The notes beneath the pieces were generated by a model that saw only the letters and a list, made by a program, of their open reading frames with translations, ran no database searches and had not been told where the DNA came from. 27,965 nucleotides of DNA from Butyrivibrio sp. (GTDB lineage Bacteria > Bacillota_A > Clostridia > Lachnospirales > Lachnospiraceae), in contig JAGOGF010000021.1 of NCBI GenBank assembly GCA_017996845.1, positions 1-27,965 on the forward strand, in the 5' to 3' direction. Shown piece after piece: positions 21,628-24,969 of the stretch (position 1 is its first letter; the number at the start of each line of letters is the position of its first letter). A program made the position numbers and the translations under genes.

Positions 21628-22068
21628 CTATTTTTCGCTGTCCGTCATGATCATCCGATTGGAAAAATCATACAGATGACTGCAGAATGCATTGCTTTTT
21701 TCATTGATCTGATACATGACAGAAGATGTCGGATCCTGGACTTTCTGACTCGTCCAGCTGTCCGCATTTCTGACAGGTGTCAGAAACAGCATTGCTATCG
21801 CCGCCGCCGATACGGCTTCCACCTCGAGTACATATAGAAAGAATGCTCTGCGCCTGCTTTTCTGATATGCTGCAGGACGCTTTCCCGTTATTTCTTTTTT
21901 CACACTGAGATCTGACTGTTCCTGTTCTGCCGCCTGCAGAATCTCGTCTTTCAGATTATGCGGTGCATGGAGCATGGAATTTGTTTCCACTTCTGCGATC
22001 AGTTTTTTCAGTTCTTCCTCTGAGAGATAATTCCCCTCGTAATCCCGGTTCTGATTTTCTCTGCTCAT
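21628..22068 (-). CDS. Probable anti-sigma factor (single-pass membrane protein)
   Basis: A 146-residue protein starting at the ATG at 22068, which overlaps the sigma-factor stop codon (ATGA) and has AAGGAG eight bases upstream. Residues 1-70 are cytoplasmic, charged and helical (YLSEEELKKLIAEVE; HNLKDEILQAAEQ). One membrane helix lies at about 76-98 (FFLYVLEVEAVSAAAIAML), followed by a short outer part of about 48 residues. This is the layout of anti-sigma factors encoded next to ECF sigma genes. The zinc-binding HxxxCxxC motif of the ZAS class is absent. The assignment rests on topology and position. Confidence 0.7.
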   Translation of the reverse strand: MSRENQNRDYEGNYLSEEELKKLIAEVETNSMLHAPHNLKDEILQAAEQEQSDLSVKKEITGKRPAAYQKSRRRAFFLYVLEVEAVSAAAIAMLFLTPVRNADSWTSQKVQDPTSSVMYQINEKSNAFCSHLYDFSNRMIMTDSEK

Positions 22069-22625
22069 GCCCGTTTCTCCTTCACGCTGCTGATCTGCAG
22101 TTCCTCTCTGTAGATTCCTTTCAGTATCACCCTGGCTCTGTAAATCTGTGTCTGAATGGATTTCAGATTCTGCCCTTTTGCAGCTGCAATATCTGCAGGT
22201 TTCTGTTCTTTGCAAAAGTACAGATATGCAATTTCATCATAAGGAGGTCTCAAACTCCTGCAGTTTTCTTCCAGGTTTTTCTGTATCTCACGCTCAAGCG
22301 CTTCGTTTTCGGGTTCCCCGCCATCCGCTGCATATTCGTCTATCGTTTCATCCTCTGTCGGTACCATACGTCTTTCCGCTTCCCGGATATAATCGATACA
22401 TTTATTGGTTGCGATCCGGCATAGCCATGCTTTCCCGTTTGCACCGTCAAACTGCTCCCTGCTGCGGTAAGCGGATAAAAAAGTTTCCTGCGTCAGATCC
22501 TGTGCCGCAAAATAATCCGTTGTCATACGGTAGCAGACTGAAAAAATCAGATTCTGATACTGATCAATCAGTTCCGCCAGCCACTTATCTGCATCTATTT
22601 TATCCACCTCCCTTACTTTTTTCAT
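22065..22625 (-). CDS. ECF-type RNA polymerase sigma factor
   Basis: A sigma-70-family protein with region 2 (LIDQYQNLIFSVCYRM; DLTQETFLSAYR; KAWLCRIATNKCIDYIREAERR) and region 4 (YDEIAYLYFCKEQKPADIAA then GQNLKSIQTQIYRARVIL), separated by an acidic linker. The start is uncertain. The ATG at 22625 (MKKVREVDK; 186 residues) and one at 22688 both lack a ribosome site. A strong AAGGGAGG lies just inside the coding region, and the only in-frame codon at ideal distance is ATA. The protein is co-expressed with the probable anti-sigma factor through an ATGA overlap, and the two membrane proteins after it are likely part of its response. ECF factors of this layout commonly answer envelope stress. Confidence 0.9.
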   Translation of the reverse strand: MKKVREVDKIDADKWLAELIDQYQNLIFSVCYRMTTDYFAAQDLTQETFLSAYRSREQFDGANGKAWLCRIATNKCIDYIREAERRMVPTEDETIDEYAADGGEPENEALEREIQKNLEENCRSLRPPYDEIAYLYFCKEQKPADIAAAKGQNLKSIQTQIYRARVILKGIYREELQISSVKEKRA

Positions 22626-22729
22626 AGGTCTGCATCGGTATTTCAGCCCGGTTCTGATATCCTGATCTGCCTTTTTCAGCCCTCTCATTTATCATAACGG
22701 ATCATCGCAACAAAAATCTTCAGAATTTC

Positions 22730-22817: not shown

Positions 22818-24815
22818 TTATCTGGTCGAGCTGCGATACTGTACAGGCGTCATCCCATACTTTTTCTTGAACAGCCTGTTAAAATGCTCTACATTCTGAT
22901 ATCCTGCCGCTTCTGCAACACGTTCCACCTTCATGTTACCGTTGCGCAGAAGGGTACTTGCCTTTTTCAGTCGGATTTTCTTGACATTTTCTCCAAAAGT
23001 TACACCAGACTTTTCCTTAATATATTTAGACAGATACGGTTTTGACAGATAAAATTTATTAGACAGATCATCCAGTGTAACCGTCAGGTAATTTTCCTGA
23101 ATATAATTCACAATTGCATTGATTCGTTCATCTTTACTATCCCGGACATTTCGTACACTGTCAATCTGATTGACCGCCACCGCAAGCGCGTTAATGGATG
23201 ACTTGATGATATCCTCATCTGTTCCGACACCCCAGAAATTCCTGCCCTCCTGCGTAACACCTACATAGGTGACTGCTTTGGAGGATGATCCTCTTCCAAG
23301 TGCATGCTCTTCATAGGTTGTCAGTTCATAACTGATATCAAAATACTGCTTGATCGCATTGCTGACAGCATCCAGACGACCGTTTCCATTGGCTGCAACC
23401 ACATGCTCCTTACCTGCATGCAGAATCGTAACTTCAGCAAGGATTCCGTCTCCCTGTTTGAAATGACAGTCGATAATCTGAAATGCACCATCATTATGCA
23501 CATATTTGTCTTCAAAGATCTGATAGATGCGTTCCGGTGAAAGTTCTGCATGTTCCCGATCGGAGATATCCTTGATCGTATAGCTGACATCTTCCTGCAT
23601 GGCCTTGGGTACCATCATGCCATAATTGGTCTTCAGGATATAGCTGACACCGCCCTTACCGGACTGACTGTTGATTCGGATGACATCACCGTCATATTCT
23701 CTTCCAAGATCTTTCGGATCAATCGGAAGATACGGAACACTCCAGATCCCTTTATCCTTCTTTTGTTCATGCCATGCAAAGCCCTTGGAAATCGCATCCT
23801 GATGAGATCCTGAAAAAGCGGTAAATACAAGTGCTCCCGCATAAGGCTGACGCTCATAGATATGCATTCTGGTCAGTCTCTCATACGCCTCTCCGAGTTC
23901 CGTGATATGGCTAAAGTCAAGTTTGGGATCAACACCGTGTGAAAACATATTCAGGGCAAGCGTCACAATATCGACATTCCCGGTACGCTCTCCGTTTCCA
24001 AATATGGTTCCTTCAATACGATCCGCTCCCGCAAGTATTCCAAGCTCCGCATCGCTGACTCCGCTGCCTCTGTCATTGTGCGGATGAAGAGAAAGCACGA
24101 CTGCATCGCGGTATTTCAGATTCTTATGGATATATTCCACTTGTGTGGCGAAAACGTGCGGCATTGCTATCTCAACCGTTGTCGGAATATTAATAACCGC
24201 TTTGTATCTGGTATCCGGTTTCCATACATCCAGTACCGCATTGCAGACATCTACCGCATAGTCTACTTCTGTCCCCGGAAAACTTTCCGGAGAATACTCA
24301 AAGGAGAAATCACCCGATGTCTCATCTGCCAGTTTTTTCAGCAGCAATGCACCATCTACCGCTATTTTCCGAATTTCATCCTTATCTTTTTTGAATACCT
24401 GTTCACGCTGTGCTACGGAAGTCGAATTGTACAGATGAATGATGGCATGCGGTGCACCATTGACCGCCTCAAACGTTCTGCGGATAATATGCTCCCTTGC
24501 CTGTGTCAGAACCTGAAGCGTTACATCATCCGGAACCATCTTCTTTTCGATCAGGGTTCTGGCGAATTCAAATTCTGTTTCAGATGCTGCAGGGAAACCG
24601 ATTTCGATTTCCTTAAAGCCGAGTTTTACAAGCAATGTGAAAAATTCCAGTTTTTCTTCCAGACTCATCGGTTCGATCAGTGCCTGATTTCCGTCCCTTA
24701 AATCAACACTGCACCAGATCGGCGGTTTATCGATATGGTCTTTTTGTACCCAGTCATATGTAACTTTGGGCGGCATGAAATACTGTCTCTGATACTTCTG
24801 ATAATTTTCCATCAC
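22818..24815 (-). CDS. leuA: 2-isopropylmalate synthase fused to an AraC-type DNA-binding domain
   Basis: LeuA condenses acetyl-CoA with 2-oxoisovalerate, the first step of leucine synthesis. The protein has 665 residues from a GTG with AGGAG nine bases upstream; an ATG is the next codon. Residues about 30-300 are the HMGL-like TIM barrel, with DLRDGNQ (38-44), the metal-binding HPH (244-246) and GNGERTGN (273-280). Residues about 430-553 match the LeuA_dimer regulatory domain, which binds leucine in known enzymes, including [12 protein letters not shown] (477-488). Residues about 563-665 are not part of LeuA: they form a complete AraC/XylS double helix-turn-helix, with [20 protein letters not shown] (581-600) and [20 protein letters not shown] (633-652), then YGMTPVQYR. 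The fusion is in one frame with no break. The gene stands alone, with its own promoter and terminator. Confidence 0.95.
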
Positions 24816-24854
24816 AATGCTATGCTCCTCTTAATTTTTGCATCATTTTTCTTG

Positions 24855-24921
24855 ATTGATCTTATCATAGCACGGTCGAATTATTATACCAGTATATTAT
24901 TTAATCACTTTTATTGATCTT
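24855..24921 (-). promoter_or_regulatory. Two 9-bp direct repeats flanking the leuA promoter, possible operator
   Basis: AAGATCAAT on the minus strand occurs at 24921-24913 and again at 24863-24855, 58 bp apart. One copy is upstream of the -10 box and one just downstream of the start point. AraC-family domains typically bind direct repeats, so these are candidate sites for the protein's own DNA-binding domain. The region is AT-rich, so chance is possible. Confidence 0.35.
24883..24891 (-). promoter_or_regulatory. Extended -10 promoter for leuA
   Basis: TGG-TATAAT reads on the minus strand: a perfect -10 box with an extended TG. The -35 position is poor. The start point would be near 24876, giving a leader of about 60 bases, too short for a leucine T-box. 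Confidence 0.65.
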
Positions 24922-24969
24922 TTTTATCTTTCTTTTTTTCAATTCAATCAGTTGCAGCCTTCACTCTCT

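Follow-up and report, generated by a model that had tools for sequence, protein, structure and literature searches.

The closest described relatives of the gene analysed here are the 2-isopropylmalate synthases of the M. tuberculosis type (LeuA; PDB 1sr9 and, with leucine bound, 3fig), which comprise the same catalytic, linker and leucine-binding domains as the protein reported below. The M. tuberculosis chain matched carries no AraC domain, and unfused clostridial relatives likewise lack one. In these unfused relatives, leucine-dependent control of leuA would be the task of a T-box leader (RF00230), an RNA that reads tRNA charging, whereas the fusion is a protein that could sense leucine itself.

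The second half of the protein resembles the AraC/XylS regulators, whose members do not all have the classical N-terminal effector domain and whose sites are usually direct repeats. Single chains that combine catalysis with gene control, as proposed here for the fusion, are found among the trigger enzymes PutA, BirA and NadR, which have a DNA-binding domain; these are other enzymes, with other DNA-binding folds. A count of the domains accompanying AraC/XylS modules arrived at 106, and the main text of that source mentions neither ‘leua’ nor ‘isopropylmalate’ (PMC5882156). BzdR is a regulator thought to stem from an HTH fused to an enzyme, shikimate kinase, and has lost catalysis (PMC3602430), whereas the LeuA–AraC fusion keeps the catalytic positions checked. 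We found no description of such a fusion in the open-access literature searched.

In one family of gut and rumen bacteria, many members have a leucine-synthesis starter enzyme with a DNA-binding tail of its own, and a matching DNA site upstream suggests that the enzyme helps to control its own gene. The 33-bp dyad operator upstream of the fused leuA genes is newly found. The fusion is real and recurrent, and there is good evidence at the sequence level that the HTH regulates the gene that encodes it.

Architecture of the fusion gene

The window (the whole stretch of 27,965 nucleotides analysed) contains the leuA–AraC fusion gene as a single open reading frame of 665 amino acids on the minus strand (22818..24815), with a GTG start; the following codon is ATG at 24812, and the database counterpart protein has 664 amino acids. 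Pfam matches on this strand comprised the catalytic HMGL-like domain (residues 33–308, 23892..24719; PF00682, 226 bits), the post-catalytic IPMS_D2 domain (residues 329–395, 23631..23831; PF22615, 110.7 bits) and the allosteric LeuA_dimer domain (residues 424–551, 23163..23546; PF08502, 93.6 bits), which binds leucine in the M. tuberculosis enzyme. A linker of residues 552–583 (23067..23162, minus strand), the least conserved stretch among those compared, leads to an AraC-type double HTH at residues 584–662 (22830..23066, minus strand; PF12833 and PF00165), where HTH_18 scored 68.9 bits over 584–662 (cut-off 33.6) and HTH_AraC 51.3 bits over 623–661 (cut-off 26.6).

All LeuA domains and HTH_18 scored above their curated cut-offs in one reading frame, and the protein matched NCBIfam NF002991 with 794.8 bits (cut-off 455). 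No classical AraC N-terminal effector domain was matched by Pfam at 0.001; only LeuA domains precede the HTH. The first-pass annotation had described an intact LeuA joined in frame to a complete double-HTH AraC domain, with a whole enzyme in the place of the AraC sensory domain, and both points are borne out. The fusion thus shares the complete C-terminal HTH_18 of AraC/XylS regulators and differs from them in the whole enzyme before it. The best sequence match was M. tuberculosis LeuA (512 bits), and 3fig came first by E-value in a fold search. The predicted structure is middling (mean pLDDT 75.4, pTM 0.53), with low values over 320–386. Both halves of the fusion, enzyme and HTH, look intact.

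Same-strand neighbours are an ADP-ribosylglycohydrolase-family gene upstream and an ECF sigma factor gene downstream. At 21628-22688 (minus strand), the sigma factor gene (Sigma70_r2) overlaps the next ORF, which has no Pfam match and, by eye, a hydrophobic stretch; this ORF perhaps encodes its anti-sigma factor.

Recurrence of the fusion in related genomes

When the best 120 of 4534 matches to residues 540–665 were examined, all 120 had LeuA_dimer together with HTH_18, and 117 had HMGL-like too, the exceptions (P0027, P0086 and P0087) being 375–378 amino acids long. Hosts of these best matches were Butyrivibrio and other Lachnospiraceae, and the product name, where given, was 2-isopropylmalate synthase. 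A scan of species genomes yielded 34 fused (L001–L034) and 46 unfused genes among the best 80 loci. We then sampled 299 genomes of the family to which Butyrivibrio proteoclasticus P18 (genome G007, locus L018) belongs. LeuA was matched at E <= 1e-100 in 270 of them, and at least 68 had the full-length fusion (match to residue 661 or beyond), although in one of these, G165, a stop interrupts the match. The earlier annotation had named the lack of any related genome with the same fusion as a finding that would speak against it; such fusions are instead common. In 62 of the 68 listed fused genomes there was a single match at E <= 1e-100, few candidates being scored per genome.

Beyond the 68, G278 was cut by a contig end, and G179 and G196 had the HTH out of frame. 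In these last two (L290 and L326, respectively) the HTH follows leuA immediately but in a different frame, and the operator described below is retained; a sequencing error or a recent break could account for this, and in G196 the gene may be split. An HTH gene neighbouring unfused leuA was considered as a pre-fusion stage and rejected, as a tblastn search of the 46 unfused loci with the HTH (E <= 1e-4) remained without a match.

Conservation of catalytic, leucine-site and HTH residues

Residue counts, like the trees below, leave out L033, whose frame ends after 51 amino acids in the record. Fourteen catalytic or substrate positions of M. tuberculosis LeuA, as listed in PMC2704214 and, for R80 and E218, PMC10464499, were kept in 34/34 fused and 46/46 unfused proteins. 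Nine leucine-site positions were likewise taken from PMC2704214. The equivalents of G531, G533, Y554 and A567 were kept in all 34 fused proteins and that of L535 in 33. A536 was D in 34/34 fused and 33/46 unfused proteins, V551 was L in 34/34 and 27/46, and A565 was S in 30/34 and 41/46; at A558, fused proteins had A (21), S (12) or T (1), and 39/46 unfused ones had A. The leucine site of fused LeuA appears usable, and a working 2-isopropylmalate synthase is predicted as part of the best explanation of the fusion.

Among the 34 fused proteins, the commonest residue had a mean frequency of 0.87 in the catalytic domain, 0.86 in IPMS_D2, 0.75 in LeuA_dimer, 0.58 in the linker and 0.76 in the HTH. 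Helices 591–603 and 642–653, which we take to be the recognition helices from the AraC fold, reached 0.89 and 0.84, above the HTH as a whole. Loss of the DNA-contacting residues, raised earlier as an argument against DNA binding, was not found: both presumed recognition helices have conserved positions. The proposition that the HTH is as conserved as the catalytic domain held among the 120 best matches (HTH 0.88), a biased value because their ranking itself rested on the HTH end, and did not hold among the 34 proteins chosen by whole-protein comparison.

A proposed operator upstream of the fused genes

Fused genes have in common an A+T-rich 33-bp dyad with the consensus TTAAAATAaATCAAtaAAAtTGATTAAATTTAa. 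In the window this operator, op1, lies at 24895..24927 (minus strand; leave-one-out score 33.6 bits), and a second, weaker site, op2, lies 62 bp from it at 24833..24865 (minus strand; 13.6 bits). Leave-one-out scores reached at least 16 bits in 33/35 of the first fused loci (18.9–42.2); in L033 and L034, which fell short, the upstream DNA spans 135 and 164 nt. The 45 unfused loci all stayed below 16 bits (best 7.8; L067, with 1 nt upstream, excluded), and 0.1% of 1050 shuffled sequences, about 1, reached that score. The fusion site differs from the usual AraC/XylS site in being a dyad. Its symmetry is nominal at most: the value of 0.72 stands against a 99th percentile of 0.725 under column permutation.

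The same matrix was applied to genomes outside the training set. Sites of at least 12 bits were present within 620 nt in 57/63 evaluable fused genes (L248, with 47 nt, set aside), or 58/63 with a site at -824, beyond a T-box. Among 36 further leuA genes listed as unfused, two reached 12 bits, and in both the HTH sits downstream of leuA in a different frame; the other 34 had no operator at this threshold (best 9.8). Thirty more Butyrivibrio leuA upstreams yielded the operator in 26. A good operator was absent in fused G352, G346, G372, G251 and G404 and in Butyrivibrio G113, G073 and G115; the fourth Butyrivibrio leuA without one (G101) is a fragment.

Sites of the op2 type, scoring at least 7 bits 36–75 nt beyond op1, were found in 22/33 loci. 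The 11 loci without a second site are nine with a T-box signature together with L010 and L027; where fused leuA has no T-box, an op2-type site is thus usually present, and all nine T-box carriers lack it.

Promoter geometry

A proposed extended -10 box, TGCTATGAT, lies at 24864..24872 (minus strand) and is assigned by consensus only. The distance from operator to extended -10 box is nearly fixed: the motif TGnTAnnWT begins 56–57 nt after the start of op1 in 27/33 leuA promoters, and 35 leuC promoters (described below) gave 34 matches at 56–58 nt and 12 at 30; the short L213 is left out of this comparison. No -35 box was evident by eye in op1 promoters. Because of this spacing, op1 would be centred near -55 in the usual numbering, an activator-like position; AraC's own site lies at such a position. 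The proposed operator adjoins the -35 region, as in AraC/XylS systems. The op2 site may be the element that took over shut-off from the T-box.

T-box leaders of fused and unfused genes

The window had no Rfam match at the gathering score, so fused leuA has no T-box leader there. A T-box signature was present in 33/46 unfused vs 10/35 fused loci, and Rfam confirmed a T-box in 11/11 unfused loci scanned and 7/34 fused ones. Further genomes gave 28/36 unfused vs 11/64 fused. Fourteen leaders were read, seven from fused and seven from unfused genes; the specifier codon after GAA was CTC or CTG in all of them, both leucine. The reading follows the rule that the specifier-loop codon comes after GAA, and one leader was examined as an alignment. 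A THF riboswitch was noted just downstream of fused leuA in Suipraeoptans intestinalis (L026, 8153-8255).

leuC as a second candidate target

Neither the window nor any of the 34 fused loci gave a LeuC match (tblastn, E <= 1e-20); 10/46 unfused loci have one. LeuC was found in 32/34 fused and 29/30 unfused genomes searched; L171, with no upstream, is left out of the leuC counts below. When the leuA-trained matrix was applied to 34 LeuC upstreams of fused genomes, three scored (28.9–37.7), all from Butyrivibrio; the remaining 31 did not exceed 2.1, nor 28 upstreams of unfused genomes 7.6. We therefore rejected leuC as a general target, no site having been found outside Butyrivibrio; several LeuC matches in those other genomes are only 42–45% identical and may be paralogues. 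Within Butyrivibrio, the matrix trained on leuA alone reached 10 bits in 35 of 56 leuC upstreams and 16 bits in 32. The leuC upstreams of L116 and L151 are A+T-rich and, by eye, partly symmetrical, and may mark another regulator.

Whole genomes were also scanned with an operator model. In 10 fused genomes the best match was the leuA site in seven; in one, leuC came first and leuA second, and in two the leuA site was unlisted. In 12 Butyrivibrio genomes, with 150 candidates scored per genome, the 29 matches at E <= 0.1 were 12 at leuC (every genome), 8 at leuA (8 genomes) and 9 elsewhere. G105, whose protein is closest to that of the window (94%), had operators of 34.7 at leuA and 19.2 at leuC; the 32 genomes behind this comparison purposely include those without a leuC site.

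Support for linked evolution of the HTH and the operator

A tree built from 80 LeuA rows places all 34 fused ones on one side of a branch (support 78/90), so the match between fusion and operator could largely be one event; on this first tree it is mostly shared history. A second tree used 70 hand-picked rows, operator misses and the closest unfused genes being included on purpose. It required at least seven changes of HTH label, four forced by well supported branches. The HTH-less genes of G202, G229, G300, G224 and G304 were nested among fused rows, on branches of 0.25–0.64 with partly weak support, and the operator was present in 0/5.

A two-trait Markov test (own script), with the operator of L034 entered as missing, favoured linked evolution of HTH and operator (LR 30.8, df 4, p 3e-6), also when the two out-of-frame cases were counted as HTH-less (LR 18.0, p 0.001); for HTH and T-box, LR was 12.6 (p 0.013). 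Absence of the HTH was searched directly in 16/34 HTH-less genes and judged by match end in the others, among them that of G256, whose match runs to residue 625 through stops. Because of the long branches and hand-picked rows, the result is support, not proof, of linked evolution. DNA binding by the fused HTH gains support from the conserved operator that accompanies it, and the first-pass annotation's reading of the fusion as a possible trigger enzyme is supported in part.

Proposed mechanism and alternatives

The sequences document an apparently intact enzyme and HTH in one chain, an operator that tracks the HTH, a site at leuC and a T-box missing from most fused genes. LeuA is probably both an enzyme and, through its AraC domain, a sequence-specific, leucine-responsive regulator of its own gene and, in part of Butyrivibrio, of leuC; a bifunctional, self-regulating LeuA that took over from the T-box is, as a partly inferential account, our best reading. 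We infer that the HTH binds the operator and that it does so as part of a dimer. The LeuA dimer would present its two AraC domains to op1, which adjoins the -35 region on its upstream side. The promoter, in which an extended -10 box is proposed but a -35 box is not evident, would be activated from op1; op2, near the transcription start, would serve for shut-off. Leucine bound in LeuA_dimer, next to the linker, would most likely shift the placement of the two DNA-binding domains, and at high leucine the enzyme would be inhibited and the promoter turned down. That leucine is coupled to transcription is likely, judging from a leucine site that is for the most part conserved and from the lack of a leucine T-box. 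We are evenly divided on a more specific proposal, in which a single binding of leucine inhibits catalysis and repositions the AraC domains, this arrangement having replaced a tRNA-Leu-sensing T-box in several lineages through a stage with both (op1 and T-box, then op1 and op2 without it).

The HTH might also bind op1 and regulate leuA in response to occupancy of the catalytic site, by 2-ketoisovalerate, acetyl-CoA or 2-isopropylmalate, rather than to leucine. Retention of the 14 catalytic positions checked would fit, as would the second target in part of Butyrivibrio: 2-isopropylmalate is the substrate of the leuC enzyme, and yeast Leu3 responds to it. We consider such a signal unlikely, since the domain adjoining the linker is the leucine-binding one and what fused genes have less often is a leucine-codon T-box. 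Ownership of the operator by a different, unlinked regulator of the same lineage, the fused HTH having another role or none, is decidedly improbable. Five fused genes and three further Butyrivibrio ones without a good operator, and the near-single origin of the fusion, speak for it; yet the operator was found in 0/45 unfused loci and 0/34 others, is gone from the five nested HTH-less rows, persists in both out-of-frame cases and, by the two-trait test, is favoured to have evolved in linkage with the HTH.

Still less credible is the HTH as a passive tail that plays no part in transcription. The C-terminus influences the activity of M. tuberculosis LeuA (PMC2704214), so that a domain added at this end could be structural; the greater conservation of the two presumed recognition helices than of the whole HTH, and the operator evidence, argue against this. 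A frame created by misassembly of two separate genes has practically no probability: two copies with the HTH out of frame indicate that frames do break in such assemblies, but recurrence of the same frame in at least 68 genomes (that of G165 with its internal stop), including isolate contigs of several Mb, rules this out.

If the self-regulating LeuA is correct, the feedback site of an enzyme may set transcription of its own gene. The relatives form a natural series (T-box only; T-box and operator; operators only; HTH and operator lost) which, with the operator defined, lets one ask how an RNA sensor yields to a protein sensor.

Operator-like sites elsewhere in Butyrivibrio

A weak third operator-like site (16–20 bits) was seen in three Butyrivibrio genomes (L355, L358 and L360, about position 1500), some 200–355 nt from an ORF that, named by eye, is peptide-permease-like. 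In two Butyrivibrio genomes (L344 and L345, about position 1493), an operator-like site scoring 21.1 bits by the matrix adjoins an ORF named, again by eye, as radical-SAM-like.
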